Origin: Candidatus Zhuqueibacterota bacterium
Lineage (GTDB): Bacteria > Zhuqueibacterota > Zhuqueibacteria > Oceanimicrobiales > Oceanimicrobiaceae
Reading direction: 5' to 3'
NCBI GenBank assembly: GCA_029262055.1
Contig: JAJDAD010000027.1
Location: 1 to 64,000 of the forward strand
DNA: 64,000 nucleotides
Shown here: piece by piece, positions 17,852 through 37,207 of the stretch
How positions within the stretch are numbered: position 1 is the first letter of the stretch
Layout of the letters: the number at the start of each line of letters is the position of its first letter
Notes under the pieces: model-generated
Told to the model about the DNA's origin: nothing
The model's input: only the letters and a program-made list of their open reading frames with translations
Databases searched by the model: none
Translations under genes and position numbers: made by a program

Positions 17852-18883
17852 ATGAAACGGTTCTCCACTCTCATTACTGTGCTTTTGGTGCTGGTGATCG
17901 CGGTGCCAAATGTGTTTGCTGTCAGTGAAGCAGCTGTGCTGTTTTTGCTGATTTCGCCACACTCACGTGCCGGTGGCATGGGAGAAGCGTTTGTGGCTCT
18001 TGCTGATGATGTCTCGGCGTCCTACTGGAATCCGGCAGGCCTGGCCTTTCAGCAAGGTAGTCAGTTCACTTCCATGTATTCGCGCTGGCTGCCTCAGTTT
18101 AATCTAAGTGATCTCTACTATTTGTTTGGCGCCTATCGACAGTCGTTTGAGGGACTTGGAACGATCGCGGGTAATATCACATTCATCAATCTTGGTGAGC
18201 AGACCCAAACAAGCGAAGTCGGTACGGAACTCGGCGTCTTCAGCAGCAATGAATTTGCATTGACTCTGTCCTACGGTACGCTGTTATCCGAGACTTTCGG
18301 CGTTGGAGTCAATATCAAGTATATCCGCAGCAACCTTTCAGATGTGGCGGTAGGTGCGCAACGCGACAAAGGGAGGGCCACGGCGTTTGCCGTCGGCGTT
18401 GGTCTGTTGAAAAAGCAATTCCTGCTGGACAACTTGAACTTCGGCCTCAGTATTTCCAATATGGGGAACAAAGTCACTTTCGTCGATGCGGACCAGGCCG
18501 ATCCTTTGCCTACGAATTTGCGCGTCGGATTCGCCTACCGCGTGCTCGATCAGGAATTCAATAAGCTGACAATCGTCACTGACGTGAACAAGTTGATCGT
18601 CAACAAGGACGAAGATGGCAATACGGATTCGGTCTTGAAAGCATTCGCCACATCGTGGGAAAACGATGACTTCATCTTTAATGTTGGCGCCGAGTACTGG
18701 TACGCTGACCTGATCGCCCTGCGTACAGGCTACAACTACGATGACGCCGGCAACGTCAAGTACCTCACCTTTGGTGCGGGTTTGCGGTACGCCACTTATC
18801 AGTTTGATTTTGGCTATATCGCCGGCGGAGAAAACAGCCCGCTCAATGACACTATGCGTTTTTCCTTGACCATCGGAAGATAA
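17852..18883 (+). CDS. PorV/PorQ-family outer-membrane protein
   Basis: 343 residues with a signal peptide (about 1-23, ending VFA). The start of the mature protein has the family hallmark SPHSRAGGMGEAFVALADDVSASYWNPAGLA, as in FadL-like barrel proteins of the type IX secretion system. The rest is beta-barrel-like and ends in RFSLTIGR. PorV shuttles T9SS cargo from the translocon to the attachment complex. Here a T9SS-tagged protein is encoded just downstream, which supports such a role, but the family also contains paralogues of unknown job. GGAGG precedes ATG. The gene is framed by its structured leader and a strong terminator. Confidence 0.85.
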   Translation: MKRFSTLITVLLVLVIAVPNVFAVSEAAVLFLLISPHSRAGGMGEAFVALADDVSASYWNPAGLAFQQGSQFTSMYSRWLPQFNLSDLYYLFGAYRQSFEGLGTIAGNITFINLGEQTQTSEVGTELGVFSSNEFALTLSYGTLLSETFGVGVNIKYIRSNLSDVAVGAQRDKGRATAFAVGVGLLKKQFLLDNLNFGLSISNMGNKVTFVDADQADPLPTNLRVGFAYRVLDQEFNKLTIVTDVNKLIVNKDEDGNTDSVLKAFATSWENDDFIFNVGAEYWYADLIALRTGYNYDDAGNVKYLTFGAGLRYATYQFDFGYIAGGENSPLNDTMRFSLTIGR

Positions 18884-18892
18884 TCACCGATT

Positions 18893-18922
18893 GCCCCACT
18901 GCAGTCTGGCAGTGGGGCTTTT
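18893..18922 (+). terminator. Intrinsic terminator after the porV-like gene
   Basis: GCCCCACTGC (18893-18902), loop AGTCTG, GCAGTGGGGC (18909-18918), then TTTT. The 10-bp stem is perfect. Confidence 0.88.
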
Positions 18923-18990
18923 GACTGGTGTTCTTCCAGCCTCTTCAACACACATTTTCCATTTCAGTTTGTCAGGACGGGAGCTAAGAA

Positions 18991-19160
18991 ATGAAGAAGC
19001 TGAGCTTGCTGTCCGCGCTAGTGTTGATTCAGGCTCCTTTTTCAGTGATCGAAGGAAGCCAGAAGTGCGTTACAACCATGATTTCGGCAATACATTTTCG
19101 AACGAAATAGGAGAAGGGACTAATCGTTCCGTCGGTCTCCTGCTGGGACTTAAGTTTTGA
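18991..19160 (+). pseudogene. Remnant of a small secreted barrel-type gene with a frameshift or deletion
   Basis: ATG 18991, with GGGAG 6-10 bases upstream, opens a clear signal peptide (MKKLSLLSALVLIQAPFS) that stops after about 39 codons at 19109. A second frame over the same stretch ends with RYNHDFGNTFSNEIGEG and then the aromatic terminus LLLGLKF at 19160, typical of the last strand of an outer-membrane barrel. The distance from ATG to that stop (170 bases) is not a multiple of three. The stop TGA overlaps the TTG start of the next gene, as in a coupled operon. I read this as a decayed gene or a sequence error; an intact gene would be short. Confidence 0.5.
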
Positions 19161-22100
19161 CCTATCGTACACCACTCCTTTTGATTGGCCTGCTGGTCGG
19201 CAATGCCTTTGCCACCGCTGAAATAACCGCGACGGCGCGTGACAATGCGCAGCCTCGCTTTCGTGTCGGAAAATCATCCGACCGCGATCTTTTGGGCTTG
19301 GGGCCTGTAAACAGCCGGTTGTCCGGTGCCCGGGTCGCCCTTCAGAATGCTTCGGCCAAATCCGACACACTTCGGATTCTGGCAATCCGGGTCGACTTTC
19401 AGGAAGATGATAACTCGTTGACAACGGGTAACGGGAAATTCGACCTGACATCGGGCGGAGAGACTTTCATAGACCCGGCGCCCCACAATCTGTCCTACTT
19501 TGAAGACCAGTTACGCGCCTTATCGAATTACTATGGTTCCGTTTCTCGCGGACAATTGATCCTGGAGGGCGAAGTTTATCCACGCGAGCCGGACGCAAGC
19601 TACACGGTCTCACAGGAGATGAGTTCCTACGTGCCTCCGAACGATGAGACTCTTCTCGATCAAAGATTGGCAGAATTCTTTCAGGAAAGTTTTCAGGCCG
19701 CAGACGCAGTAGATAACATCGATTTTTCGCGTTACGATGTGTTTATGATTTTTCATGCAGGAGTTGGCGCCGACTTTTCGTTTGATTTCGATCCAACTCC
19801 CCAGGATGTGCCTTCGGTATTTCTCGACTTCGGTACGCTTAGCGAAAACCTCGGAGGGAATGATCCGGGTTATCAGGGTGTTGAACTCAGCAACGGCGTC
19901 TTTATTCGCGACGGCATTATTCTCCCTGAAACTCAAACCCAGGAAGGGTTCGAATTGGCCCTTCTGGGGACAATGGCCATCATGTTCGGCAACCAGTTGG
20001 GGCTGCCGATTCTGTTTAACCCGGACACCGGAAGATCGGGAATAGGTGTGTTTGGCCTGATGGACCAGGGGTCGGGCAACTTCTTCGGCCTGCTCCCCGC
20101 TCAACCAAGCGCCTGGTCGAAAGTTTTTCTCGGATGGGAAGTGCCTATTGAGGTCACAGAGGGGGTGGACTTGGAGATTGCAGCAGCACTAGCCCAAAAT
20201 GACAACAAGCTGTACAAAATTCCGATCAATACTAATGAATACTTCCTTCTTGAGAATCGTGACCGTGACATTAACAACGATTCTCTCGCGGTTGGCGCCA
20301 CAGGCAGCGGTGCACGCGTCGAGTTCCGTTGGGATAGAAATGGCCAGCAAGTCACCTTTGAAGAGCGTGGCGTTGTGACTGAAACCAATGAGTACGATTT
20401 TGGCGTTCCCGGCTCGGGTATTCTCATTTGGCACGTGGATGAAAACACAATCGCAGCTAATTTCGCAGACAATCGGGTTAATGCGGATCCGTTCAACAGG
20501 GGCGTCGATTTGGAAGAGGCGGATGGCGCACAGGATATTGGACAAATCTATGGGTTTCTGGACCCGGGAGCAGGCGCGGAAAACGGGGTGGTCGAGGATA
20601 TGTTCTGGGGCCAAAACGAGATCAATATGTTGGTAAATGACTCTTCGGACGTCGTGGTCTTTTCCCCGACCACCAGACCCAATAGCAATTCCAAGAGCGG
20701 CGCGAATTCTCACATTGCGATTTTTGACTTCAGCGCCCGCGACTCGGTCATGACTTTTAGCGTTGGAAATGACATCGTGCAAACCGGCTTTCCGCAGTAC
20801 GCGGGCCCACAGACGGATATGGAGAATTCCACACTTCTTGCCGACCTGGATGGTGATGGCGTTAGGGAGACCATCGCCGCCTCCAGTACCAGCATGCAGC
20901 TTTTTGTCTGGCGCGCCGACGGTGGTAAGTTGATTCCGAATAACGAAACGGCGCAACTACCCTTGGTGAATGGCGAATCACGTTCGGTATCCGCTGCAGT
21001 CTTTGCCGAACTTCCGGGGCAGCGGCTGTTTTCGCCCGCTTCCGTGAGACTCGGACAGGAAACACTGGTCATCGCTGCCAGCAATACCACGGTTGCTGCG
21101 TACAGAGGGACTGACCAGGACGGGAACGGCTTGGCAGACCCGATATTTACGGCTGCAAGTTCTTCCGAATTGACAACAAGTCCGCTGGTGCTAACGGACC
21201 TTGTGTCCAGAGATTTTCAGGTGGTCGTGGGAACGATCGACGGCGACCTGGTGCTGGTGGACAGCGGCGGCTTGCTCTCTAGGCTCGCTAATGCGCTCGG
21301 TGGACAGATATCCGGCACAGCCTTGTTGCCGGGTAACCGCATCGTTTTCGCAACCAGAGATGGGGTTGTCGGGGTCGTTGACCTATCCGGCAGTGTCCTG
21401 TGGAGTCGCAACGCCGGTCATTCGATTTCTGTTTCTCCGGTGATTGCCGACCTGAACCAGGATGGCGTCCTCGAGGTGACTGTGGTCACCGAGCTTGGGA
21501 CAGCCTTTTCAGTTGCGCACGATGGAACCGATTCCACGACCTTCGTAAGTGAGTCGGGATTCAGCAACCCCTCCCGGCTTGCGGTGGGCGATATCGACGG
21601 AGACCAGTTTCTCGACGTTGTTTTCGTCTCAGCCAACAAGCTTTATGTTCTGAATCACACCGGCTTTGTGAAGGACGGCTTCCCGGTTGCTGTCAGCAGG
21701 GATAATCCGGGAACGCTTTCGTCGCCAGTGCTGGTTGACTTGAACGGCGACAACCTTGCCGACATTGCTGTTGGAACAGGACAAAACCAAGTCGTCGCGT
21801 TCGACGGGAATGGTGAGCCGGTTGCCGGCTTCCCGCTGTCGACCGGCGGTGCGGTGCACGCGACGCCCTTTGCAACGGATATCGACGGTGATGGTGATGT
21901 AGAGTTGAGCGTGGTGTCGGAAGATGATTTTGTCTACGTGTGGGATTTGCAGATTCCCTTCAACAGGGCGGCTTCGCCCTGGGTTGGCTTTCTGGGAGAC
22001 GAAGGCCACGGCAATGCGAATCTTGCCAGCGGGCAGGTTCAGCCGGGCGGTGGTGCGCTCATGCCATCCAATTTGGTTTACAATTATCCCAATCCGACTG

Positions 22101-22339
22101 AAGGGACTCAGACGACGATTCGCTATACGCTCAACACCTCTGCGCAGGTACGGATCAAAATCTACGACCTGGCCGGCGATTTTGTCCAGGAGCTCAGTGG
22201 CACGGGTTTTGGTCAAACAGAAAACGAGGTCGATTGGCGTCTGGACGATGTTGAAAGCGGCGTCTATCTGGCCAGGGTTGAGGCGAGCAGTGGAAGCCAA
22301 ACTGAAGTTGCCATCATCAAAGTCGCAGTTGTCAAATGA
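19157..22339 (+). CDS. T9SS-exported M6-metalloprotease-like protein with lost zinc site and FG-GAP repeats
   Basis: 1,060 residues, TTG start overlapping the previous stop. A signal peptide (to about residue 20) precedes an M6 (immune-inhibitor-A-like) domain (about 60-420). It has TLRILAIRVDFQEDD, the GVFGLMDQGSGNFFG block and the WSKVFLGW motif of that family. Where active relatives have HEFGHxLGLP this protein has IMFGNQLGLP (residues 275-284). The two zinc His residues and the catalytic Glu are replaced by I, N and M. About five FG-GAP/VCBS repeats follow, with DLDGDG, DLNQDG, DIDGDQ, DLNGDN and DIDGDG loops that would bind calcium. The end (from VYNYPNPTEGTQTTIRY) is a type A T9SS sorting domain. 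A surface binding or scaffold role is inferred. Confidence 0.85.
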   Translation: MTYRTPLLLIGLLVGNAFATAEITATARDNAQPRFRVGKSSDRDLLGLGPVNSRLSGARVALQNASAKSDTLRILAIRVDFQEDDNSLTTGNGKFDLTSGGETFIDPAPHNLSYFEDQLRALSNYYGSVSRGQLILEGEVYPREPDASYTVSQEMSSYVPPNDETLLDQRLAEFFQESFQAADAVDNIDFSRYDVFMIFHAGVGADFSFDFDPTPQDVPSVFLDFGTLSENLGGNDPGYQGVELSNGVFIRDGIILPETQTQEGFELALLGTMAIMFGNQLGLPILFNPDTGRSGIGVFGLMDQGSGNFFGLLPAQPSAWSKVFLGWEVPIEVTEGVDLEIAAALAQNDNKLYKIPINTNEYFLLENRDRDINNDSLAVGATGSGARVEFRWDRNGQQVTFEERGVVTETNEYDFGVPGSGILIWHVDENTIAANFADNRVNADPFNRGVDLEEADGAQDIGQIYGFLDPGAGAENGVVEDMFWGQNEINMLVNDSSDVVVFSPTTRPNSNSKSGANSHIAIFDFSARDSVMTFSVGNDIVQTGFPQYAGPQTDMENSTLLADLDGDGVRETIAASSTSMQLFVWRADGGKLIPNNETAQLPLVNGESRSVSAAVFAELPGQRLFSPASVRLGQETLVIAASNTTVAAYRGTDQDGNGLADPIFTAASSSELTTSPLVLTDLVSRDFQVVVGTIDGDLVLVDSGGLLSRLANALGGQISGTALLPGNRIVFATRDGVVGVVDLSGSVLWSRNAGHSISVSPVIADLNQDGVLEVTVVTELGTAFSVAHDGTDSTTFVSESGFSNPSRLAVGDIDGDQFLDVVFVSANKLYVLNHTGFVKDGFPVAVSRDNPGTLSSPVLVDLNGDNLADIAVGTGQNQVVAFDGNGEPVAGFPLSTGGAVHATPFATDIDGDGDVELSVVSEDDFVYVWDLQIPFNRAASPWVGFLGDEGHGNANLASGQVQPGGGALMPSNLVYNYPNPTEGTQTTIRYTLNTSAQVRIKIYDLAGDFVQELSGTGFGQTENEVDWRLDDVESGVYLARVEASSGSQTEVAIIKVAVVK

Positions 22340-22374
22340 ACACCTTTTCTCGCTTTGCAGTGGTTGGAGATTTT

Positions 22375-25300
22375 ATGCACAGAATTAGAGCCACGGTTTT
22401 TCTTTTAGGAATTTTCTTCGGCCTGCAATGGGTATCTCCCTTGTCTGCGCAGCCTGAGCAGTTTAACCACCCCGAACTGGACTGGTATTCAATCGAATCT
22501 GAACACTTTTTTGTCCATTTCCATGCCGGCGCTGAGCGTACCGCCCGCGTGACCGGGAAGATAGCGGAAGAGGTTTACGAACCGATCACGTCCCTCTACC
22601 AATATAAGCCTCCGGGCAAGATGCATTTCATCATCCGCGATCACGATGACTACTCGAACGGTGCGGCTTTTTTCTACGACAACAAAGTGGAGATCTGGGC
22701 TCCTGCTGCCGCGTTTGAGTTTCGAGGGGCGCACAATTGGTTGCGCAACGTGATCACGCATGAATTCACCCACATGATTCAGATCAACGCGGCGCGAAAA
22801 ATAACTCAGCGAATTCCCGCTTTTTATTTTCAGGCAATCGGTTACGAGGATGACCGCCGCGAAGATGTCTTGCACGGTGGGCCTAATGTCATTGCCTCAT
22901 ATCCGCTGGCCATGACCGTCATGCCGGGCTGGTTCGCCGAGGGTGTGGCACAGTACCAGGTGCCGGGCCTGGACTATGACTCGTGGGACACGCACCGTGA
23001 CATGATTTTGCGAACCGCGACTATCGACAATCAACTTCTCACGTTCAACGAGATGGGTGTTTTCGGCAAGAACAGCCTGGGAAATGAGAAGGTGTACAAT
23101 CATGGCTATGCCTTCGTCTCCTACCTGGCCGACCGATTCGGCATAGAGGCCTTGCGTTCGATCTCCGTTGAGATGAAAGGCCTGTTCCGCACAACTCTTG
23201 ACGGCGCCATCAAGAAGGCAACCGGCCACGAGGCGCGCACGCTGTACGCCGATTGGGTCAAGTCGCTGCGGGTGCGCTACGCTGTGCAACTCAAGGAGGT
23301 TACACCGCGCAGGGCAGAAGGAACTTTCGTTGAAGAAAAAGGAATAGGAAATTTCAGTCCAGCCTGGTCCCCCGATGGCACCCGTTTGGCCTATCTTACC
23401 ACAGGCGGCAATGACTATCTTTCGCAAACCGCACTGGTGGTGAAACACCTGGAGACAGGGGCGACTGACAAGATCGCTGCCGGCGCAAAGTACGGGTTCA
23501 GTTGGTCTCCGGACGGCACGAAGTTGGCGTTTGCGGATAAGTCCGCGCGTAGCAAAGGTGGCTCCCGATATTTTGATCTCTATGTTTTTGACCTGGCTAC
23601 CCGCAAGAAGGAGCGCGTTACCTTTGCGTTGCGGGCACACAGTCCGCACTGGTCTCCGGATGCCGGGCAGCTCGTTTTTATCAAAAGTTCGGACGGAACC
23701 GACAATTTGATGACAGTCGATCTTACCGGCAAGAACCTTCGCAAACTGACACATTTTGAAAATGGCGAGCAGATTGCGAGGCCTCAGTTTTCCCCGGATG
23801 GCAAGTCTGTTCTCTATTCCACCCACCGGCGCAATGGGCAGGACATCTATCAGTTGGAGTTGGGTTCCGGCAAAATACGGCCGATCGTGAACGGTGCCCA
23901 TGACTCAAGAGATGCCGTCTGGAGCACCGATAGCCAATCAATCTATTTTAGCTGGGACCGTACCGGCATTTTCAATATTTATGAATTGAACCTGGAATCC
24001 GGCCGCGTGCAACAGCTAACCAACGTGACGGGCGGCGCGTTCATGCCTGCGCGCAGCAAGAGCGGTCAGTTAGCATTTACGAATTTTACCTCAGGCGGCT
24101 TTAAGATTTCGCGCATTGAGAATCCGGAGCCAGTGGAGGTTTTCGAGATTGAAGATATGCCGGTGTCGAGCACAGACACGCCGGCATTAGCATCGGCGTC
24201 AACCAATGTTCAGCAGTCTATCGCCGAAGGGCTCACGCCACAATCGTACGATGATTCCAAGGTGCCCAATCTGACGAAAAGCCCGTACCGCACGCAATAT
24301 GCCCCGATTTCGTTTCTTCCGCGAGTCATGGTGGATTATGGCACGTTGAAGATCGGCACATACCTCTATTCTTTTGAAGTGCTAAACAAGTATGGTTTTC
24401 TGGCCGGTGTTGATTTTAATTCGCGCGGCGACTACGACCTGTTTGCCCTGCTGGAGTATCGCAAGTTCGGTCCCACGCTCTTTCTCGAAGCGTACAACCA
24501 GGTACAGAACACTGATTTTGATGTTGATTCCACCGAGGTTATTCGACGCCAGTTGTTCAACCGTGAGGTGGCGCAAGACAAATTCCGGTACAACCTGCTG
24601 GAAGCGAACCTGGGCGTCAGTTTCAAGTTGGGTGAAGCCAACGAATTGCGCACCGCGTTCATCATCAGCCGCTACAGTACCAGGGCGAAGTTTGATGAAG
24701 CAACCGGCGTCCGTTCAACTCTGAATTTCAACTACTTTATTGGTAGAGACATTTCAGTGAAGTTCAAGCACCGGGGTCTGCGGTCGCATCGGCATTCAGC
24801 GATCAGCCCGTTAGGCCGGTCTTTCACTTTGGGGTATGACCGGGAGTTCGATAGATTTCTCGTAGACTTTGCCACTGACCGCGTGGTCAGCGCAGAGGTG
24901 TTTGAGAACTATAACTTCAACAAGTTTACGCTCGACTGGCAGGAACACCGTGCGATGCCCATCGCCGGGCACACCCTTTCGCTGGATGTAGATGCCGGTT
25001 ACATCGACACGAAAGTCGATAGCTTTTTTAACTTTTTTGCGGGTGGAATGCTTGGTAATCGCGGCTATCCGCTCTACAGCATTGAGGGCCGGAAGCTACT
25101 ACAGGCGCGTGCCACCTACCGCTTTCCTTTGTTTAAACATCTCGATTCGCGCCTGGCACACCTTTATTTTGACAAAGTGTTTTTGGGACTCTTTTTTGAT
25201 TATGGCAACGCATTCAGCGGTTCACTTGCGCTGGACTCTTTTAAATCGAGCCTTGGTGCGGAGTTGCGAATGGACTCGTTTTCCTTCTATTCGTTCCCCA

Positions 25301-25413
25301 CAAGAATGTTCTTCGGCGCCGCTTACGGTCTTGACCAGTTCCAAAACTCGGATCAAATCTATGGTCACGAGTGGCGCTATTATTTTGGCCTGTCATTCGG
25401 ATATTTTGACTAA
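22375..25413 (+). CDS. Surface metallopeptidase-like / TolB-type propeller / outer-membrane barrel fusion
   Basis: 1,012 residues from ATG 22375 (GGAG 5 bases upstream; the frame is also open from an ATG at 22336 overlapping the previous stop). Signal peptide to about residue 27. A gluzincin-like peptidase domain follows, with HEFTH (His129, Glu130, His133) and the downstream WFAEGVAQY third-ligand region, so the site looks complete. Residues about 325-610 hold five PD40 beta-propeller repeats (WSPDGTRLAY, WSPDGTKLAF and similar). From about 660 onward it is a BamA/surface-antigen-like barrel ending in LSFGYFD. It would display a peptidase and propeller at the outer membrane. The substrate is unknown; its partner may be the neighbouring pseudo-protease. 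Confidence 0.82.
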   Translation: MHRIRATVFLLGIFFGLQWVSPLSAQPEQFNHPELDWYSIESEHFFVHFHAGAERTARVTGKIAEEVYEPITSLYQYKPPGKMHFIIRDHDDYSNGAAFFYDNKVEIWAPAAAFEFRGAHNWLRNVITHEFTHMIQINAARKITQRIPAFYFQAIGYEDDRREDVLHGGPNVIASYPLAMTVMPGWFAEGVAQYQVPGLDYDSWDTHRDMILRTATIDNQLLTFNEMGVFGKNSLGNEKVYNHGYAFVSYLADRFGIEALRSISVEMKGLFRTTLDGAIKKATGHEARTLYADWVKSLRVRYAVQLKEVTPRRAEGTFVEEKGIGNFSPAWSPDGTRLAYLTTGGNDYLSQTALVVKHLETGATDKIAAGAKYGFSWSPDGTKLAFADKSARSKGGSRYFDLYVFDLATRKKERVTFALRAHSPHWSPDAGQLVFIKSSDGTDNLMTVDLTGKNLRKLTHFENGEQIARPQFSPDGKSVLYSTHRRNGQDIYQLELGSGKIRPIVNGAHDSRDAVWSTDSQSIYFSWDRTGIFNIYELNLESGRVQQLTNVTGGAFMPARSKSGQLAFTNFTSGGFKISRIENPEPVEVFEIEDMPVSSTDTPALASASTNVQQSIAEGLTPQSYDDSKVPNLTKSPYRTQYAPISFLPRVMVDYGTLKIGTYLYSFEVLNKYGFLAGVDFNSRGDYDLFALLEYRKFGPTLFLEAYNQVQNTDFDVDSTEVIRRQLFNREVAQDKFRYNLLEANLGVSFKLGEANELRTAFIISRYSTRAKFDEATGVRSTLNFNYFIGRDISVKFKHRGLRSHRHSAISPLGRSFTLGYDREFDRFLVDFATDRVVSAEVFENYNFNKFTLDWQEHRAMPIAGHTLSLDVDAGYIDTKVDSFFNFFAGGMLGNRGYPLYSIEGRKLLQARATYRFPLFKHLDSRLAHLYFDKVFLGLFFDYGNAFSGSLALDSFKSSLGAELRMDSFSFYSFPTRMFFGAAYGLDQFQNSDQIYGHEWRYYFGLSFGYFD

Positions 25414-25433
25414 ATTGTTGTGAGGCAGAGACT

Positions 25434-26306
25434 ATGAAAACAGCTTCTTTCCTGGCCGGAATTTTCGTTCTCCTAGGTTCAATATCTGTATCTGCAGCGG
25501 GGGAGCGTGAGACAGCACGGCAGCTCCTGCTCAAATCAGGACCAGCCGCTGAGTTTCGCCATAACCTGAACGAAAATCTGCGCGAGTCGAGTGAGTACGC
25601 GGCTCCGGAGGTTATATTGCCGCGGCAGTCTGTGGCCAAGGGCGTGGTTTTCTCAGCCTTGATTCCCGGCGCCGGACAGGCTTACAACGGCTCATACCTA
25701 AAAGGGGCACTGTTTCTTGCCATCGAAGTAGCGGCCCTGGTCGGGCATTTCCATTACCAGAACAAGGGCCAGGATTTTGAAGATGACTTTGAGCGACTTG
25801 CCGATGCCAATTGGAATGAAGATGCCTACTGGGATTGGATGTCTCAAATCAGCGGAGTTTCTCGAAACGACCGCGCCGGCCTGCAGGAGTATGAAAGCAA
25901 CAACTTCAGCCACTTTCTGCCGGATGAAAAGAGCCAGCAGTACTACGAAAATATCGGTAAATATAATCAATTCGTGGTCGGATGGGATGACTTCCGGGAA
26001 GAAACGCTTGGGTCAGATACCTTTACTGAAACGCACTACCGGAGCGGCTTTTACACAGGCACCAGGCTGGAAGATATCTCGCCGACGCGGACCGAGTATT
26101 TTGTGATTAGGACTGATTCAAACGACAACCTTAAGCGCGCAACGAATCTCGTCACGGTGGCATTTCTTAACCATGTCGCCAGCGCTTTGGACGCCGGGTT
26201 GAGCATCAAGCGCAGAAACCAGCGGGCGCAGGCGGAGCTGAAGCTCGGCAGTTTCCTACATAATAGCAAGGTGGTTCCTGCAATGACTCTGGGTGTGTCG
26301 TGGTAA
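25434..26306 (+). CDS. DUF5683-like secreted/membrane protein (copy 1)
   Basis: 290 residues with a signal peptide ending SAAG (about residue 22). The segment GVVFSALIPGAGQAYNGSYLKGALFLAIE contains the PG-x-GQ-x-YNG-x-x-x-KG motif I associate with DUF5683, and a hydrophobic helix follows at about 98-112. The middle is highly charged and aromatic. A second hydrophobic helix (VTVAFLNHVASALDAGLS) carries the conserved N-H/ASALDA pattern. Function unknown; relatives in FCB genomes sit beside surface-protein genes. It follows the peptidase gene after 20 bases and overlaps copy 2 by 7 bases, so the three are one operon. Confidence 0.68.
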   Translation: MKTASFLAGIFVLLGSISVSAAGERETARQLLLKSGPAAEFRHNLNENLRESSEYAAPEVILPRQSVAKGVVFSALIPGAGQAYNGSYLKGALFLAIEVAALVGHFHYQNKGQDFEDDFERLADANWNEDAYWDWMSQISGVSRNDRAGLQEYESNNFSHFLPDEKSQQYYENIGKYNQFVVGWDDFREETLGSDTFTETHYRSGFYTGTRLEDISPTRTEYFVIRTDSNDNLKRATNLVTVAFLNHVASALDAGLSIKRRNQRAQAELKLGSFLHNSKVVPAMTLGVSW

Positions 26307-27124
26307 GATCTCAACTGGCATTTCATCTTCTGTGCCTTGTTCTCGCTACCAGGGCATTCGCTTTCGGAGGAGACGCAAGCCGCGGCGGGATTGCCCCGGA
26401 CGAGGAAACCATCCTTGGACCGTCCAGCAAGGCGTTTGAGCTTAAACAGCAAGTCGTGGAAGCGAGTGTGGCCAGGATAATAGCTGAAGAAACCGGTGCT
26501 CCGTCTCAAGCAGGAACGGTCTTCGCAGCAGAGGGCAAGGTTGCTGGTAAGTCGAGAGGGAGAGCATTTTTGCAGTCGCTCCTGCTGCCGGGTTGGGGGC
26601 AACATTACGCCGAGTCCCCCAAGATGATGCGCGTTTTTATCGCTTCCGAAGTGCTGTTGTGGGGCGGCTTTATCGGATTTACCAAGTGGAGCGATTGGCT
26701 CGAAGACGACTACCGCGCCTTTGCGGTGGAACACGCGCGCATTGATTTGCAGGGTAAATCTGACCGCTATTTCAGCGACATCTCTATTTTCAATGGTATC
26801 GATGAGTTTAACCAGGATCAGTTACGCAACCGGGACGTAACCACTTTGTACAATGACCGGGAAGCAGACTTCTGGCAATGGGACAGCAGAGGGAACCGTT
26901 TGCAATACGCCAATCTGCGTTTCCGGAGCAATAATGCCGATAATCGTGCCGAACTTATGCTGGCTGCGATTTTCGTGAACCACCTGGCCAGCGCTATTCA
27001 TTCAACGCTGTCTGTGTTTAAGTTTAACAAGAGGTTGCAGAAGGAGGAGATCGGTTTGCACTTAGACTTCCAGCCTTCACAAAGTGGCCAGCGTGTTGCG
27101 GTCCGTCTCGAAAAGCGCTTCTAA
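26300..27124 (+). CDS. DUF5683-like secreted/membrane protein (copy 2)
   Basis: 274 residues, GTG start overlapping the end of copy 1 (GTGGTAA). It repeats the same plan: signal peptide, a variable spacer, then AFLQSLLLPGWGQHYAESPKMMR (PG-x-GQ-x-Y motif), a membrane helix, a charged centre with FWQWDSRGNRLQYANLR, and IFVNHLASAIHSTLSVFKF near the end. The matching NHxAS-A block in both copies supports an ancient tandem duplication. Overall identity with copy 1 is low by eye. Function unknown. It ends the surface-protein operon and is convergent with the symporter gene. Confidence 0.65.
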   Translation: MVRSQLAFHLLCLVLATRAFAFGGDASRGGIAPDEETILGPSSKAFELKQQVVEASVARIIAEETGAPSQAGTVFAAEGKVAGKSRGRAFLQSLLLPGWGQHYAESPKMMRVFIASEVLLWGGFIGFTKWSDWLEDDYRAFAVEHARIDLQGKSDRYFSDISIFNGIDEFNQDQLRNRDVTTLYNDREADFWQWDSRGNRLQYANLRFRSNNADNRAELMLAAIFVNHLASAIHSTLSVFKFNKRLQKEEIGLHLDFQPSQSGQRVAVRLEKRF

Positions 27125-30392: not shown

Positions 30393-31532
30393 GTGGCAAT
30401 CGACCATAGAAACCCCGAACCTCTTTACCGGCAAATTGTCGCGGACCTCAGGTCACGCATCCAGTGCGGTGAGCTTAAGGTAAACGAGCAGGTAGGTTCA
30501 CACCAGGAGCTCTGCCGCCAATATGAGGTGAGCTTGATTACCGTTAAGCGCGCTCTGGCTGAATTGATCCAGGAGGGCGTCCTCTACAGCCGCGTTGGAA
30601 AAGGAACATTCGTGGCCAGTAAGTCCCCTTTTGTTTTGCACACCAAGCATCAGACTCTCGGCGTTGTCTTGAGCGACCTCACCAGCCCTTTCTTCTCCCT
30701 CATTATAGAGAGCTTTGAAGAGACGGCGCACGATCTGGGTTACAACATCTTGCTGTCGACGTCGTCGGACCGGGTGGACAAAGAGGAAACACAGATTCGC
30801 CGCTTCATGGACATCGGTGTCGATGGCCTTCTGATCGCTTCGATGTCGCATGTCTATCGGGCAACACCCACCGTTCGGCGTCTTCATGAAGACAGTTTTC
30901 CGTATGTCATGGTATCCTATGTCGACGATGACGATGTCTACTACGTTGGGACTGACAATGAGCAGGGCGCGTTCATGGCCACCGAACATTTGCTCAAGCT
31001 TGGTTACCGGCGCGTCGGCTATATCAGCGGCGAAATGGGGAACCTGCTGGGCGACCTCAGGCAACGTGGCTATACAAAGGCTTTGCAGGCTTTTGACATT
31101 CCTTTCGACCCGGGCCTGGTTTACCGCTTGCGTGACAAGTGGAACGGCTACGGTTCGGGTTTTGAGATCGGCCGCTCCTTTCTTGCTTCTTCCGATCGAC
31201 CGGACGCGGTGTTTGTTTACAATGACCTTTCCGCACTCGGCTTTGAGAAAGCTATCCTCGATGGTGGTCTCCGCGTACCGGAAGATATCGCCATCGTCGG
31301 TTTTGATAATATCAAACGGTGTGTCGTGGCATCGGTTGCCTTGACGACCGTGCACCAGCCAACGCGGAGAATCGGCCAGATTGCTTTTGAAGTCCTGAAT
31401 GCACGTATGCAACGCAGCGTAGTTGCGCCTAGGACCATTTTGGCCCCGGAACTGGTGGTCAGGCAATCGTGTGGGGCCCGTCAGCAGGGCTATCCGGAAG
31501 TAAACCAGGGAGAGCGCTCTTCCGGGTTCTAA
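30393..31532 (+). CDS. GntR-type transcription regulator with LacI-type sugar-sensing domain
   Basis: 379 residues, GTG start. Residues 8-75 are a GntR winged helix (PLYRQIVADLRSRIQCGEL, SLITVKRALAELIQEGVLYSRVGKGTFV). From about residue 88 a periplasmic-binding-protein fold of the LacI/GalR kind follows: LGVVLSDLTSPFFSLIIES, RFMDIGVDGLLIAS, HLLKLGYRRVGYISG, PDAVFVYNDLSALGFEKAI, IVGFDNIK. This AraR-like architecture binds a sugar effector and releases DNA. The gene is behind a promoter overlapped by a large dyad, and the TonB receptor and T9SS protein follow in the same direction. It most likely controls that glycan-uptake group and perhaps the divergent genes. Confidence 0.92.
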   Translation: MAIDHRNPEPLYRQIVADLRSRIQCGELKVNEQVGSHQELCRQYEVSLITVKRALAELIQEGVLYSRVGKGTFVASKSPFVLHTKHQTLGVVLSDLTSPFFSLIIESFEETAHDLGYNILLSTSSDRVDKEETQIRRFMDIGVDGLLIASMSHVYRATPTVRRLHEDSFPYVMVSYVDDDDVYYVGTDNEQGAFMATEHLLKLGYRRVGYISGEMGNLLGDLRQRGYTKALQAFDIPFDPGLVYRLRDKWNGYGSGFEIGRSFLASSDRPDAVFVYNDLSALGFEKAILDGGLRVPEDIAIVGFDNIKRCVVASVALTTVHQPTRRIGQIAFEVLNARMQRSVVAPRTILAPELVVRQSCGARQQGYPEVNQGERSSGF

Positions 31533-31592
31533 TCAGCTCGTGTTGCTGCTTCGGCATTTATTCGATTTGCTGTTTTGTCTCTTTGAGGTCGA

Positions 31593-34409
31593 ATGTCTAT
31601 GTGTAAGTCAACCGTGTTTGTCATTCTCAGTCTTCTTCTATGGCCAATTCCGTCGCGAGCCGGTAATGGCGTAGTCCGTGGCGTGGTTACGGATGCGCAC
31701 TCTGGTGACGGTCTGCCCGGTGCAAATGTATCGATCAGGGGGACGGCGTTAGGTGCTGCCACCGACCTGGAAGGTAAATATAGTATTCGCAGTGTCCCAG
31801 TCGGGCGCTACAAGGTGGTCATCTCCTTTATTGGCTATAAAACCATGGAATTCGACATTCGGGTTGTCGTGGATGAGCCCGCCATACAAGATGCGCAGTT
31901 GGCCTTCGAAATGGTGGAGAGTGAAGAAGTTGTGGTCACGGCACTCATGGAAGGCCAGGTGCGAGCCATCAATCAGCAACTGTCGTCGAATACGATTGTC
32001 AACGTAGTTTCAAAAGACCGCATCGAAGAACTACCGGACCAAAATGCGGCAGAGTCGCTGGCACGGTTGCCCGGTATCGCAGTGCAGCGCGACGCCGGTG
32101 AGGGGCAGAAGGTCGTGGTTCGCGGCTTGTCTCCCAAGTTTAACTCCATTACTATTAACGGTGAACGCATTCCCGCCACTGATGCTGAAAACCGATCCGT
32201 CGACCTGAGCATGGTATCTACTGACGTCCTTTCTGGAATCGAGGTGTTCAAATCATTGACTCCGGACAAAGACGGGGATGCGGTCGGCGGCACCGTTAAT
32301 TTTGTTATGAAGAAGGCGCAGCCCGGACTGAATGGCAACATGCGTTTTCAATCGGGTTACAATGACCACGAGACCGAGCTCGGCCAATACAAAGGCAGCG
32401 CCAGCCTTGGCCACCGGTTGCTCAATGGCAGACTCGGTCTGCTTGGCACCGGCAGCATTCAACGCGCAAATCGCAGCTCTGATCTGCTGGATGCTGAGTA
32501 TATCTTCAAACGTGAAGCACGCGAGGGTGAAGACCGTGCCCTCATTGAGGTCGGGAAGTTAAACCTGTCCGACAGATTGGAAACCCGGTACCGGCTCAGT
32601 GGTAGCTTTTCGGCAGATTTCGATTTGGATGAGGGGGAGTTGCTTCTGACCAGTTTGTGGGCCCGGACTGAGCGTGACGAGTTGAGGCGGCGCAAGCGCT
32701 ACCGGGTTGACGCCGGCCGCGTCGAATACGACTTGCGGGATCGTGAAATCAATACGACACTTTGGAGCAATGCGCTCAGCGGTAAACACGACTGGGGCGC
32801 GTTACAGATAGATTGGCGCAGCTCATTCTCCCGTACAACGCGGGACATTCCATTCTCCAATCTTGCGCGCTTTCAGGAGCGCGCCGCGTTCAACAATAGC
32901 TTGATCGATGACCAGGGGCCAGACCTCATCCCCGCCGGCGCGAAAAATGACATCGAGGATACCTGGTTTCAATTCGGAACTTTCAATCCGGAGCGAATCA
33001 CAGACAGAGACCTCACGGGGCAACTCGATCTGAGGCTACCCGTCCGTCTGGGACGGAATGTTGCCGGGTTCTTCAAGGCTGGCGGCAAGATCCGTGATAA
33101 GAACAGGGATCGGGATAAAGAGGAGCTGCGTACGCCATTCGCTGAGACCGACCGCATCGGCAGGGAAAACAGCGACCAGTTTGATTTGACCCGTGAAGGC
33201 CATATCAAAATCGGAAATTTCATCGATCCTGTTTTTGATGCCGGGGATTTTCTGGATGGCCGGTTTGAATTTCCGCTCGGTCTCTCCCGGGACCGGATAA
33301 ATGACTTTCGAACGACTTTTCAAGACCGGTACGATGTTAATCGTGTCGCGCTGCTGGATAATTATGAGGCGGGTGAAACCATCTCCAGTGCCTACTTGAT
33401 GACACAGCTCAACCTCGGGCGCCGGATTATGCTCCTGCCGGGGTTTCGGTTTGAGCGAACCACAAATTCATACGATGCCAAGGTAGGAGAGTTGCGCGGG
33501 GACCTGGGCGCTCAGGGCGCGATAATCGACTCTACGGGTGGACAGGAGTATAGCGAGGTTCTGCCCATGTTTCATCTGCGATATAAGGTGACGTCGAATT
33601 TTGACATCAGGCTTGCCGCAACACGCTCTCTCTCCAGGCCGGATCATTTTAACCTCGTACCGTTTGAAAACATCAGCCGCTCCGAGCAAACAGTCACCCG
33701 CGGTAACTCCGAACTTAAGCATACGACGGTTTGGAATTATGACGCGTATCTTTCCTTCTACGGTCGCGCAGGGCTTTTCACTGTGGGCGGATTCTATAAA
33801 GAGCTGAAGGATATCGATTATATACGCCAGACCCGCCTGACTGAAGGCGAGCTCTCGGGTTTTACCGTGACTGAACCCGTGAACGGAGAGGAGTCCACCG
33901 TCTACGGGATTGAATTCGACATACAGACCAACCTTAGCTTTCTGCCCAGTCCACTCGATGGCATTGTCCTCAATGCCAACTACTCTTTTGTTGACTCCGA
34001 GACCTTCTTCCCGTTCTTCAAAATTGGCCCGCGCAGCCCGGACCCGCCATTTAGGCCGACCGTCATCGACACCGTGCGCGAGTCGACTCTGCCGGGCCAG
34101 TCACGGCACATTGCCAACCTGTCAGTCGGTTACGAAAAGAGAGGGTTTACCGCTCGGGTTTCAGTGCTTTTCCAGGAAAAGAGCTTGATCACAGTCGGTA
34201 CCCGCGACGAACTTGACGGCTTTACGGATGAAACCGTGAGATGGGACATCGCTTTTTCGCAAAAGTTCGGAGGCGGTTTAAGCACCTTCTTCAACCTAAA
34301 CAATTTTTCAGACGCTCCGGAAGGTGCGTTTCTCGGCATTTCCGCTTTTCCCACGCGGGAAGAGTTTTTTGGCTGGACCGGGGATCTCGGTGTTCGCTAC
34401 AGATTTTAG
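31593..34409 (+). CDS. TonB-dependent receptor with carboxypeptidase-regulatory-like domain
   Basis: 938 residues. Signal peptide to about residue 23 (SRAG), then a beta-sandwich CarboxypepD_reg-like domain (about 26-110: VVRGVVTDAHSGDGLPGANV, YKVVISFIGYK). The plug follows (about 120-240: VVSKDRIEELPDQNAAESLARLPGI, VVVRGLSPKFNSITINGERI), and then a 22-strand-type barrel with the usual aromatic end (LGVRYRF). The plug wording resembles the proteobacterial TonB-receptor subfamily linked to carbohydrate uptake as much as SusC. It would import an oligosaccharide using TonB energy. It follows the regulator by 60 bases and precedes a T9SS-exported protein; no SusD homologue is present. Confidence 0.94.
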   Translation: MSMCKSTVFVILSLLLWPIPSRAGNGVVRGVVTDAHSGDGLPGANVSIRGTALGAATDLEGKYSIRSVPVGRYKVVISFIGYKTMEFDIRVVVDEPAIQDAQLAFEMVESEEVVVTALMEGQVRAINQQLSSNTIVNVVSKDRIEELPDQNAAESLARLPGIAVQRDAGEGQKVVVRGLSPKFNSITINGERIPATDAENRSVDLSMVSTDVLSGIEVFKSLTPDKDGDAVGGTVNFVMKKAQPGLNGNMRFQSGYNDHETELGQYKGSASLGHRLLNGRLGLLGTGSIQRANRSSDLLDAEYIFKREAREGEDRALIEVGKLNLSDRLETRYRLSGSFSADFDLDEGELLLTSLWARTERDELRRRKRYRVDAGRVEYDLRDREINTTLWSNALSGKHDWGALQIDWRSSFSRTTRDIPFSNLARFQERAAFNNSLIDDQGPDLIPAGAKNDIEDTWFQFGTFNPERITDRDLTGQLDLRLPVRLGRNVAGFFKAGGKIRDKNRDRDKEELRTPFAETDRIGRENSDQFDLTREGHIKIGNFIDPVFDAGDFLDGRFEFPLGLSRDRINDFRTTFQDRYDVNRVALLDNYEAGETISSAYLMTQLNLGRRIMLLPGFRFERTTNSYDAKVGELRGDLGAQGAIIDSTGGQEYSEVLPMFHLRYKVTSNFDIRLAATRSLSRPDHFNLVPFENISRSEQTVTRGNSELKHTTVWNYDAYLSFYGRAGLFTVGGFYKELKDIDYIRQTRLTEGELSGFTVTEPVNGEESTVYGIEFDIQTNLSFLPSPLDGIVLNANYSFVDSETFFPFFKIGPRSPDPPFRPTVIDTVRESTLPGQSRHIANLSVGYEKRGFTARVSVLFQEKSLITVGTRDELDGFTDETVRWDIAFSQKFGGGLSTFFNLNNFSDAPEGAFLGISAFPTREEFFGWTGDLGVRYRF

Positions 34410-34504
34410 TACTTTAGTCCATTGCTGTTTTTGCCCACGGCCACAATAGATTGGCTCGACCAAGAATTTCACATAATTTCTCAATTAAGATCAAGGAGGG
34501 AAAC

Positions 34505-37207
34505 ATGCCAGGACGTTACTCTAATTTCGTGTTTGTGGTGTTCCTTACATGCGCTGTCCTGTTGTCCCTGGCGGGGATTGACAAGAGCAGTGCCCAAATC
34601 CGGGAAGTCCGTGTTGCGCAAGGGGTTGGAACTTTGAATGAAGCCATAGATTCCGATACCACTGCCACCGGCGAGCGCGCTGGCGGCGACTCGACCACGG
34701 TATACGTGCTGGAAAGTGGCGGAATCTACCTTCTCAGCGGCTCGATTGAGAATCGCTTTCCACTGACCATTGTTGCAGAGGACGGTTGGACTGAGCGTCC
34801 GCGCCTGATTCCCGGAGTTGATGATGGCGGTTCATCGGGGCGCCCATTCCGGGCCAGAGGCGATCTAACTCTGCGTGGGCTGTACATAACCAATGAGGAT
34901 GAGCTGGGTGCGCGCAATACGCGGATTGTCCGAATCAGTGCGGACAGCATCAAGGTAAGTCTTGATCAGTGCCATCTGGACAAAGATGGCCAATCCGGTT
35001 TCAGGTTTGACAATGACTTTGTCAGTGTCTGGCTAACCAATTCGATCATGAGCAACATCGGCACGATGGAGTCACCGAACAATGGTCGTGGCTTCGATGA
35101 CCGCGGTAATCCCATCGATACTCTGTTTGTGGAGAATTGTACGTTTTATAATCTCACCAGCCGGGTCCTGCGCGATGACGGTGGGATCATAAACTACGCT
35201 CATTTCAACCACAACACTCTGGTCAACATCGGCCAGCGGGGCGTTACGTTTGGCGAAGTGGTGAGCGCATCGTTTACCAATAATCTTTTGATAAACACGT
35301 CATTTTTGGGTTCGGCTGCGCTTGGAGATCAGGAGCTTGCCACGGTGTCGGTCGATACGTTGTTGGATGTGACCAAGACCCAGACAGTGGACATCCGCAA
35401 CAACAATATCTACAACGGGGCCGCGGTCGTGGCAGCTTTGCCGGACACGGTGGATGCGCTGGTCAACTTTGGACCTTTGGCACAGTTCTACGTTGACCAG
35501 GGCGGCGCTGGCGCTACCATCATCTCTGATGCGACCGTCTTCAACAACGGTCCTGCGGCGCCGGTAGATGTGATAACGAGCTTCTTCGACCCGGCGGCAA
35601 CGAACATCGAAATGGACACTGCGGGCGAGCCGTTTGATTATTTGTATCCGAACACGACCGCCTCGTTCACCGGTTCCACGGCCGGGCAGCCGTTGGGCGA
35701 CCTGAACTGGTTTGGTCTTGATATCATCCCTGGTGGAACTCCGGCACCCGTCCACATCCGGGAAGTGCGCGTTGCGCAAGGCGTTGGGACTTTAAATGAG
35801 GCCATAGATTCCGATACCACTGCCACAGGCGAGCGTGCTGGTGGCGATTCGACCACGGTCTACGTGCTGGAGAGTGGCGGAATCTACATCTTGAGTGGTT
35901 CGATTGAGAATCGTTTCCCCCTGACAATCGTTGCTGAAGACGGCTGGACCGAACGCCCGCGCCTGATTCCGGGAGTCGACGATGGCGGTTCATCGGGGCG
36001 TCCATTCCGGGCCAGAGGCGATCTAACCCTGCGCGGGCTGTACATAACGAATGAAGATGAATTGGGTGCGCGCAACACACGAATTGTTCGAATCAGTGCG
36101 GACAGTGTGAAGATAAAGCTTGACCAATGTCACCTGGACAAAGACGGCCAATCCGGTTTCAGGTTTGACAATGACTTTGTCAGTGTCTGGCTAACCAATT
36201 CGATCATGAGCAACATCGGCACGATGGAATCACCGAACAATGGCCGTGGCTTCGATGACCGCGGTAATCCCATCGATACTTTGTTTGTGGAGAATTGTAC
36301 GTTTTATAATCTCACCAGCCGGGTTCTGCGCGATGACGGCGGGATCATAAACTACGCTCATTTCAACCACAACACCTTGGTCAACATCGGCCAGCGGGGC
36401 GTTACGTTTGGCGAAGTGGTGAGCGCATCGTTTACCAATAATCTTTTGATAAACACGTCATTTTTGGGTTCGGCGGCGCTTGGAGATCAGGAACTTGCCA
36501 CGGTGTCGGTTGATACGTTGTTGGATGTGACCAAGACCCAGACGGTGGACATCCGCAACAACAATATCTACAGCGAGGCCGCGGTCGTGGCAGCTTTGCC
36601 GGACACAGTGGATGCGCTGGTCAACTTTGGGCCTTTGGCTCAGTTCTACGTTGACCAGGGTGGCGCTGGCGCTACCATCACCTCTGAGGCGACCGCTCTC
36701 AACAACGGTCCTGCGGCGCCGGTAGATGTGATAACGAGCTTCTTCGACCCGGCGGCAACGAACATCGAAATGGACACTGCGGGCGAGCCGTTTGATTTTT
36801 TGTATCCGAACACGACCGCCTCGTTCACCGGTTCCACGGCTGGCCAGCCGTTGGGCGACCTGAACTGGTTTGGACTCGATATCATCACGTCAGTGGCCGG
36901 ACAGGATGGTGGTGGCGAACAGCCTGAGTCTTTCGGTCTGCTCAGCAACTATCCGAATCCCTTCAACCCGTCGACCAACATTGTGTATACCTTGTCCAGC
37001 TCGGCCACGGTTAAGCTGGCGATCTACAACATGTTGGGGCAAAGGGTGGTGACACTGGTTGCAGGCGAAGCACAGCTCTCCGGACAACACACTGTGCAGT
37101 GGGACGGTAAAGATGACATTGGCAATCCGGTGTCGAGCGGAGTCTACCTGTACAGAATCGAGGCTGGCGAGCTGGTGGAGACCAGCAAAATGATGCTGTT
37201 GAAGTGA
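34505..37207 (+). CDS. T9SS-exported protein with two near-identical beta-helix-like units
   Basis: 900 residues from ATG 34505 (AAGGAGGG ends 5 bases upstream). Signal peptide to about residue 31. Two units of about 386 residues follow, each starting IREVRVAQGVGTLNEAIDSD and ending LGDLNWFGLDII. They are almost identical. Each has a parallel-beta-helix look (VYVLESGGIYLLSGSI, FYNLTSRVLRDDGG, SASFTNNLLINTSF). The last 90 residues, from LLSNYPNPFNPSTNIVYTL to SKMMLLK, are a type A T9SS sorting domain. There are no obvious catalytic residues. A surface glycan-binding partner of the TonB receptor is my inference; I do not know a named family beyond DUF5123/DUF4957-like outer-membrane proteins. 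Confidence 0.8.
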   Translation: MPGRYSNFVFVVFLTCAVLLSLAGIDKSSAQIREVRVAQGVGTLNEAIDSDTTATGERAGGDSTTVYVLESGGIYLLSGSIENRFPLTIVAEDGWTERPRLIPGVDDGGSSGRPFRARGDLTLRGLYITNEDELGARNTRIVRISADSIKVSLDQCHLDKDGQSGFRFDNDFVSVWLTNSIMSNIGTMESPNNGRGFDDRGNPIDTLFVENCTFYNLTSRVLRDDGGIINYAHFNHNTLVNIGQRGVTFGEVVSASFTNNLLINTSFLGSAALGDQELATVSVDTLLDVTKTQTVDIRNNNIYNGAAVVAALPDTVDALVNFGPLAQFYVDQGGAGATIISDATVFNNGPAAPVDVITSFFDPAATNIEMDTAGEPFDYLYPNTTASFTGSTAGQPLGDLNWFGLDIIPGGTPAPVHIREVRVAQGVGTLNEAIDSDTTATGERAGGDSTTVYVLESGGIYILSGSIENRFPLTIVAEDGWTERPRLIPGVDDGGSSGRPFRARGDLTLRGLYITNEDELGARNTRIVRISADSVKIKLDQCHLDKDGQSGFRFDNDFVSVWLTNSIMSNIGTMESPNNGRGFDDRGNPIDTLFVENCTFYNLTSRVLRDDGGIINYAHFNHNTLVNIGQRGVTFGEVVSASFTNNLLINTSFLGSAALGDQELATVSVDTLLDVTKTQTVDIRNNNIYSEAAVVAALPDTVDALVNFGPLAQFYVDQGGAGATITSEATALNNGPAAPVDVITSFFDPAATNIEMDTAGEPFDFLYPNTTASFTGSTAGQPLGDLNWFGLDIITSVAGQDGGGEQPESFGLLSNYPNPFNPSTNIVYTLSSSATVKLAIYNMLGQRVVTLVAGEAQLSGQHTVQWDGKDDIGNPVSSGVYLYRIEAGELVETSKMMLLK
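34598..36890 (+). repeat. Tandem duplication, period 1,158 bases, inside the T9SS protein gene
   Basis: Unit 1 begins at 34598 and unit 2 at 35756 (386 codons apart), both at ATCCGGGAAGT. Long stretches, for example 34982-35400 against 36140-36558, differ at only a few third positions. That shows a recent duplication or ongoing gene conversion. The junction carries a short unit-specific linker (GGTPAPVH). Confidence 0.92.

Follow-up and report, generated by a model that had tools for sequence, protein, structure and literature searches.

Related surface and outer-membrane systems

Several described systems resemble parts of the locus analysed here. The attachment complex of Porphyromonas gingivalis, PorU:PorV:PorQ:PorZ, unites the PorV and PorQ barrels with surface proteins bearing a C-terminal sorting domain (CTD), and its pairs, PorU held by PorV and PorZ by PorQ, are known from experiment (PMC5562754). 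Type B cargo of the type IX secretion system (T9SS) has a cognate PorP/SprF shuttle, the shuttle barrel gene adjoining that of the cargo (PMC12618676). In the Bacteroidota BAM canopy, BamA-BamG-BamH, FadL-type and Omp85 barrels are found with a large surface protein (PMC12611786, PMC12578637), and the WD40-Omp85 subfamily described by Heinz and Lithgow in 2014 carries a TolB-like propeller N-terminal to the Omp85 barrel (PMC4104836). For PlpD, an enzyme of the Omp85 type, the N-terminal domains have been shown to be periplasmic (PMC11116518).

A five-gene cassette in Zhuqueibacterota

The window is the whole stretch of Candidatus Zhuqueibacterota DNA that was analysed, 64,000 nucleotides in length. 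A sequence-only reading had proposed five neighbouring genes for envelope or surface proteins at 17852-27124, and all five open reading frames (ORFs) were found there. The genes and their predicted features are:

17852..18883, + strand: porV, FadL/PorV-type outer-membrane shuttle
18893..18918, + strand: between porV and M6i, a strong predicted terminator-like hairpin of 10 pairs (8 of them G-C) followed by TTTT
19157..22339, + strand: M6i, M6 pseudo-peptidase with 8-bladed FG-GAP propeller and type A T9SS tail
19979..20011, + strand: degenerate M6 active site of M6i, from alignment with Cloacimonadota HEFGH proteins
20777..21955, + strand: FG-GAP propeller of M6i (residues about 541-933)
22085..22321, + strand: type A T9SS CTD of M6i (Por_Secre_tail, TIGR04183, 40.5 bits, cut-off 23)
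22336..25413, + strand: MAbar, MA-clan metallopeptidase with 6-bladed TolB-like propeller and 16-strand Omp85 barrel
22759..22773, + strand: intact HEFTH zinc site of MAbar (H142, E143, H146)
22939..22941, + strand: E202 of WFAEG in MAbar, probable third zinc ligand
24310..25398, + strand: Omp85-type barrel of MAbar (residues 659-1021, 16 strands; RGYP at residues 909-912)
25434..26306, + strand: DUF5683 protein 1, with signal peptide and helical membrane segments carrying a PGAGQ motif
26300..27124, + strand: DUF5683 protein 2, paralogue of DUF5683 protein 1

The tight spacing that had been claimed holds for four of the genes, with overlaps of 4 bp (M6i/MAbar) and 7 bp (between the DUF5683 ORFs) and a 20-bp gap from MAbar to the first DUF5683 ORF, and not for porV, which by its ORF coordinates lies 273 bp from M6i with the hairpin between. 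As comparable hairpins occur in 4 of the 40 porV-M6i gaps of relatives, the terminator was dropped as a conserved feature.

PorV and the M6 pseudo-peptidase

The first gene scores 99.9 bits against PF19572 (cut-off 27) and 294 bits against NF033709 (PorV_fam, cut-off 90). Against the equivalog model NF033710 it reaches 231.3 bits, under the cut-off of 250, the genome's six other typed PorV-family proteins all scoring 91 bits or less; by profile score it is thus by far the top match to canonical PorV among the seven typed. Assignment as BamG was rejected, NF053685 (cut-off 250) giving no match to the window PorV at E 0.001 and about 20 bits for two paralogues. By analogy, PorV is predicted to bind and shuttle CTD cargo. 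A CTD gene is found within 4 kb of 7 of the 12 PorV-family genes in the genome (about 0.004 by a simple binomial).

The product of the second gene, M6i, scores 632.7 bits (cut-off 600) against NF052323, the NCBIfam model "T9SS-dependent M6-like inactivated metalloprotease". The earlier reading knew of no system with such a layout, and our literature search found no paper describing the cassette, but this protein type is already catalogued as NF052323, a model that the reading had missed; what is new here is the cassette, its active relatives and two losses of the site. In alignment with the Cloacimonadota proteins, the residues at HEFGH...D are I275, M276, F277, G278, N279 ... I285, and HExxH is absent from the window M6i and all 39 aligned relatives in the phylum. 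Of the 151 columns conserved at 90% or above in the phylum, 125 fall in the dead M6 region (residues 61-540) and 9 in the propeller, and the pseudo-peptidase region is therefore itself under selection. With the site residues lost, the sorting tail present and the M6 domain strongly conserved, the proposal of a T9SS cargo with a dead M6 domain was borne out; the calcium-binding repeats that it named correspond to four FG-GAP_3 stretches.

An AlphaFold model of M6i (pLDDT 89.3) was used for structure searches, in which the propeller gave Z of about 31-36 against designed 8-bladed propellers and BamB. When the whole model was searched, the propeller filled the matches listed and no solved M6 structure was among them, which is not evidence against the fold.

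The MAbar metallopeptidase and the DUF5683 proteins

The third gene had been described as encoding an intact HEFTH site, a propeller and an outer-membrane barrel, and this description stands: a PD40 propeller and an Omp85 barrel accompany a HEXXH motif that, together with E202, is invariant in 40 aligned proteins. Against PF13485 (Peptidase MA superfamily, gathering score 32.4), MAbar scores 32.2 bits, compared with 34.3 and 39.8 bits for two paralogues that the genome also encodes. The AlphaFold model (pLDDT 86.6) contains 16 barrel strands; the conserved RGYP, which corresponds to the RG(F/Y) motif in loop 6 of Omp85 barrels, sits in the long loop that joins strands 11 and 12. Its propeller matches TolB with Z 28.3 (2.7 Å over 244 residues), and its barrel matches BamA barrels with Z of about 21-22.5. 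A paralogue of MAbar is encoded close to PorU here; a tie between the MAbar family and PorU was rejected, as none of 20 other PorU neighbourhoods contained a MAbar-like gene.

The N-terminal peptidase of MAbar is probably periplasmic rather than at the surface, because an Omp85 barrel leaves N-terminal domains inside, as judged from the loop pattern of the model and the precedent of PlpD. This bears on the proposal of a coordinated surface complex, where the dead protease would serve as an inhibitor of the active one or as a subunit that binds it. Known roles of pseudo-peptidases include scaffolding, protein binding and the regulation of active relatives (PMC11266112), and the invariant co-occurrence of M6i and MAbar, adjacent through their overlap, would suit such a pair; however, the two belong to different protease families, and Omp85 topology would place the MAbar peptidase in the periplasm while the sorting tail places M6i outside. 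The coordination is upheld, the action of all five proteins on the surface is not, and a direct inhibitory or binding pair is very improbable on topology.

The last two genes encode proteins that align as paralogues, DUF5683 protein 1 scoring 28.4 bits against PF18935 (cut-off 26.7) and DUF5683 protein 2 falling just below at 26.2 bits. To our knowledge, DUF5683 has no known function.

Conservation across the phylum

Across 40 Zhuqueibacterota loci, the order PorV-M6i-MAbar-DUF5683-DUF5683 and its strand are constant wherever the contig permits a test, and the flanks vary while the cassette stays, with AccB/AccC/GcvH and others coming and going. Family-specific matches to M6i occur in about 78 of 82 Zhuqueibacterota genomes. 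The genes were thus found neither apart nor in random order in relatives, and the claim that they are coordinated as a set agrees with this phylum-wide comparison. At the level of gene order, the conservation is far beyond chance, and since it is kept across a whole uncultured phylum, the five genes appear to be a genuine working unit. The existence of the cassette is solid; its function we infer.

Separate housekeeping functions at the surface and in the envelope could instead share an operon-like locus for co-expression only, M6i being an ordinary adhesin or a structural protein that PorV shuttles as cargo. The general shuttle role of PorV, the terminator-like hairpin after the window porV and the small additional genes tolerated within the block in some genomes would all fit. 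Such an arrangement is nevertheless unlikely, as the order is invariant in the phylum, and partly in a second, while the neighbours change, and M6i, the one sorting-tail protein surveyed in this way, occurs in nearly all genomes of the phylum.

The T9SS itself is widespread in the phylum: SprA passes its cut-off in 79 of 81 genomes and PorU does so in 72 of 81, while for PorZ 15 of the 21 genomes searched have such a score. The window genome encodes 147 T9SS sorting tails. The GldM family model had no match in it and gave none in the control either. PorU (845 bits) and PorZ (271.9 bits) are both encoded elsewhere in this genome, ruling out M6i as a replacement for either.

Active and inactive M6 proteins in Cloacimonadota

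A version of the cassette in Cloacimonadota, overlooked by the earlier reading, consists of PorV, an M6 protein with HEFGH intact in 16 of 16 and DUF5683 proteins, without the barrel-peptidase gene. When active M6 proteins are used to root the tree, this HEFGH clade is sister to the window M6i clade (support 99/95). Cloacimonadota also possess a second M6 protein, which is dead (mostly HQFGH). It had seemed the nearest kin of the window clade from higher profile scores and a midpoint-rooted full-length tree, a placement overturned by the active-M6 rooting. Directly after it, 18 of 26 loci have a gene that scores with the PorV profile, and a further 7 have an unscored ORF of about 300 aa. PorU was considered as the identity of the large third gene in these clusters and rejected for the two loci read, where the gene encodes a subtilase bearing a T9SS tail; most other loci have an ORF of about 1,230-1,450 aa nearby.

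As the rooted tree makes the active Cloacimonadota M6 the sister, the site would have been lost in the window phylum, where the MA-peptidase/Omp85 gene is present. One possibility is that MAbar took over catalysis from an active M6, with M6i surviving as its substrate adaptor and both acting on shared target proteins at the outer membrane. The presence of MAbar wherever contigs permit a test in the dead-M6 phylum, and its absence beside HEFGH, argue for this, as do the rooted tree, the proximity of the dead Cloacimonadota M6 to a subtilase or large ORF, and pairwise distances of M6i and MAbar that correlate beyond an AccC control (partial r 0.61), although base composition and the shared locus confound such correlations. 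With few independent events (two losses) and two proteases on opposite sides of the membrane, such a replacement appears somewhat unlikely.

A possible T9SS accessory module

The reading that we tentatively prefer is that the cassette forms a T9SS accessory module, with a pseudo-protease subunit held by PorV outside and an Omp85-peptidase in the periplasm for processing or quality control. Read directly from the genomes are the five-gene order, the dead but conserved M6 with its T9SS tail, the intact metallopeptidase site joined to an Omp85 barrel and the paralogous DUF5683 proteins. M6i would cross the outer membrane via the T9SS and then be retained on the surface by PorV, as modelled on PorU:PorV and PorZ:PorQ, where it may bind cargo or shuttle without cleaving. 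In the same outer membrane, MAbar, its peptidase and TolB-like propeller facing the periplasm, would cleave or clear proteins in transit, and the DUF5683 pair may help from the membrane. The ancestral cassette would have had an active M6 protease, as in Cloacimonadota today; in the window phylum, its site would have been lost and a different metallopeptidase would have joined. Counting against the module, M6i fills no missing T9SS slot, since PorU and PorZ exist elsewhere; the Cloacimonadota cassettes lack MAbar, so the core idea does not depend on it; and co-inheritance could result from shared regulation alone.

A more specific scheme of trans-outer-membrane quality control, in which a pseudo-protease permanently bound to PorV recognises cargo outside and the Omp85-anchored metallopeptidase, with its TolB-like propeller, cleaves cargo that is stalled or immature on the inner side, catalysis having moved in evolution from the secreted M6 subunit to the membrane-anchored one, is decidedly unlikely.

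An order-invariant T9SS-shuttle cassette suggests undescribed accessory parts of type IX secretion outside Bacteroidota, and a metallopeptidase-bearing Omp85 protein gains a genetic context. The active cassette of Cloacimonadota and the inactivated cassette with a second peptidase provide a natural experiment that bears on why the active site of a secreted protease is lost while its fold is kept.

Comparison with known systems

NF052323, of which M6i is a member, names the protein only. Gene 3 differs from the WD40-Omp85 proteins in adding an N-terminal HEXXH peptidase, the word "peptidase" being absent from the main text of that paper (PMC4104836). Compared with PorU:PorV:PorQ:PorZ, the cassette has an M6 pseudo-peptidase as the partner predicted to associate with PorV, and it further includes an Omp85 peptidase and DUF5683 proteins. 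The cassette is also unlike the BAM canopy: its PorV matches PorV models and not BamG, its Omp85 barrel is preceded by a peptidase and a propeller, and its surface protein is a T9SS cargo, whereas that of the canopy is a lipoprotein. Finally, in contrast to type B cargo with PorP/SprF (PMC12618676), the shuttle of the cassette is a PorV-family barrel and the tail is of type A.

The five-gene cassette

All five genes proposed as a surface cassette by the sequence-only reading were recovered in place. Family scans of the window identified PorV, an M6-type protein ending in a type A T9SS tail (M6i), a metallopeptidase-propeller-barrel protein (MAbar), and two DUF5683 proteins.

17852-27124, + strand: cassette of PorV, M6i, MAbar and two DUF5683 genes
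18893-18918: strong terminator-like hairpin immediately 3' of porV, rare among relatives
30393-37207: LacI-type regulator, TonB-dependent receptor and sorting-tail protein (tail 36950-37195), adjoining the cassette's convergent SSF transporter

The last of these resembles an ordinary locus for nutrient uptake. The cassette PorV is the top canonical-PorV match of the genome (NF033710, 231 bits; six other typed PorV-family proteins score at most 91). M6i scores 632.7 bits, above the 600 cut-off, against NF052323, an existing curated family named "T9SS-dependent M6-like inactivated metalloprotease"; proteins that combine a dead M6 with a T9SS tail were therefore already known.

When the phylum was searched with NF052323, about 78 of 82 genomes (hand count of listed matches) had a family-specific match; the four genomes without one are fragmented or incomplete assemblies. 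Gene order was compared in 40 fetched loci: PorV lies upstream of M6i on the same strand in all 40, MAbar is the next cassette gene in every locus whose contig runs on, and both DUF5683 genes follow wherever the contig is long enough. The flanks are variable, with an AccB-AccC-GcvH cluster seen upstream in approximately half of the loci and missing from that position in the rest. This constant order means that the genes neither occur apart in these relatives nor vary at random, the two outcomes against which the idea of a coordinated set had been staked.

The M6i-MAbar gap holds extra genes in a few loci: one for a small protein of 121-230 aa in L043, L055 and L063, a CreD-like protein gene in L052, and a second PorV-family gene in L074. 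M6i is split into two ORFs in L078 (genome G041); an in-frame TGA is reported for this genome, and the split could alternatively stem from a frameshift or an error in sequencing.

Loss of the M6 active site

The M6 alignment comprised the window protein and 39 phylum relatives, together with two Cloacimonadota types, A (16 proteins) and B (26). HEFGH is present in all 16 A proteins, B proteins mostly carry HQFGH, with Gln for the catalytic Glu, and an HEFGH-type motif is absent from the window protein and its 39 relatives. In the window M6i, I275, M276, N279 and I285 occupy the positions of the M6-consensus His, Glu, His and Asp. H142, E143, H146 and E202 of MAbar are invariant in 40 aligned proteins.

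The M6i single-chain model (pLDDT 89) comprises the M6 region, an eight-bladed propeller (Z about 31-36 against designed propellers and BamB) and the sorting domain. Of 151 columns at least 90% conserved in the phylum, 125 fall in residues 61-540, the dead peptidase, and only nine in the propeller, which argues that the pseudo-peptidase is the selected part and points to a binding function.

Comparison beyond the phylum, by contig profile scan, covered Cloacimonadota. The A locus is PorV, active M6 and usually three DUF5683 genes, without MAbar. The separate B locus (clusters in L141-L179, e.g. L142:6081-14354), often with EF-P upstream, has a dead M6 with a PorV/PorQ-family gene next downstream; of 26 loci, 18 show a PorV-profile match at this place and seven others an ORF of similar length that is unscored. 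Behind this, most loci have an ORF of ~1,230-1,450 aa, a subtilase with a T9SS tail in both loci read.

When three active M6 proteins from the phylum are used to root an M6-domain tree, A groups with the clade of the window protein (ultrafast bootstrap/SH-aLRT 99/95), in agreement with their common PorV and DUF5683 neighbours, and B falls outside; branches are long. A full-length tree, drawn with midpoint rooting, instead joins B to the window clade. Under this rooting the M6 site was lost twice, the same catalytic Glu having disappeared independently in B. In the window's phylum the loss goes together with a different metallopeptidase being part of the cassette.

T9SS context and proposed roles

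With SprA, PorU, PorZ and 147 sorting tails encoded, the genome has a T9SS, and a role of M6i as stand-in for PorU or PorZ is ruled out. TIGR03517 (GldM motor subunit) found no match, its control being silent too. Tandem duplicated PorU genes occur in several phylum genomes (L182, L196, L201).

In this genome, PorV-family genes lie near genes for T9SS sorting domains (CTDs) at a higher rate than expected: by hand count, 7 of 12 are within 4 kb (~0.004, simple binomial). Many paralogues lie <4 kb from type A CTD genes (contigs C14, C52, C58, C60, C61 and C103), a proximity which may mean that type A cargo has dedicated shuttles; such shuttles have so far been described for type B cargo.

In Porphyromonas, PorV anchors PorU and PorQ anchors PorZ (PMC5562754). 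M6-family genes of the phylum and of Cloacimonadota A adjoin PorV, and most of those in B adjoin a PorV/PorQ-family gene, suggesting a pairing of the same kind.

The MAbar single-chain model (pLDDT 87) has a helical peptidase, a six-bladed TolB-like propeller (Z 28) and a 16-strand Omp85 barrel (Z about 21-22.5). Its longest loops follow odd strands and RGYP lies in the strand 11-12 loop, as in BamA, so on this model the N-terminal domains are expected to face the periplasm. In PlpD, an Omp85 enzyme, a periplasmic location of the enzymatic domain has been shown (PMC11116518).

From the Porphyromonas pairing and the PorV-family/CTD proximity, the favoured reading is that M6i may be a non-catalytic surface subunit held by PorV, and MAbar an outer-membrane-anchored periplasmic protease of the same secretion pathway. 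AccC-corrected pairwise-distance correlations are mostly higher within the cassette than against AccB and GcvH, but carry little weight because base composition and shared locus confound them. Among known systems, MAbar fits the WD40-Omp85 subfamily (PMC4104836), from which it differs in its added peptidase domain.
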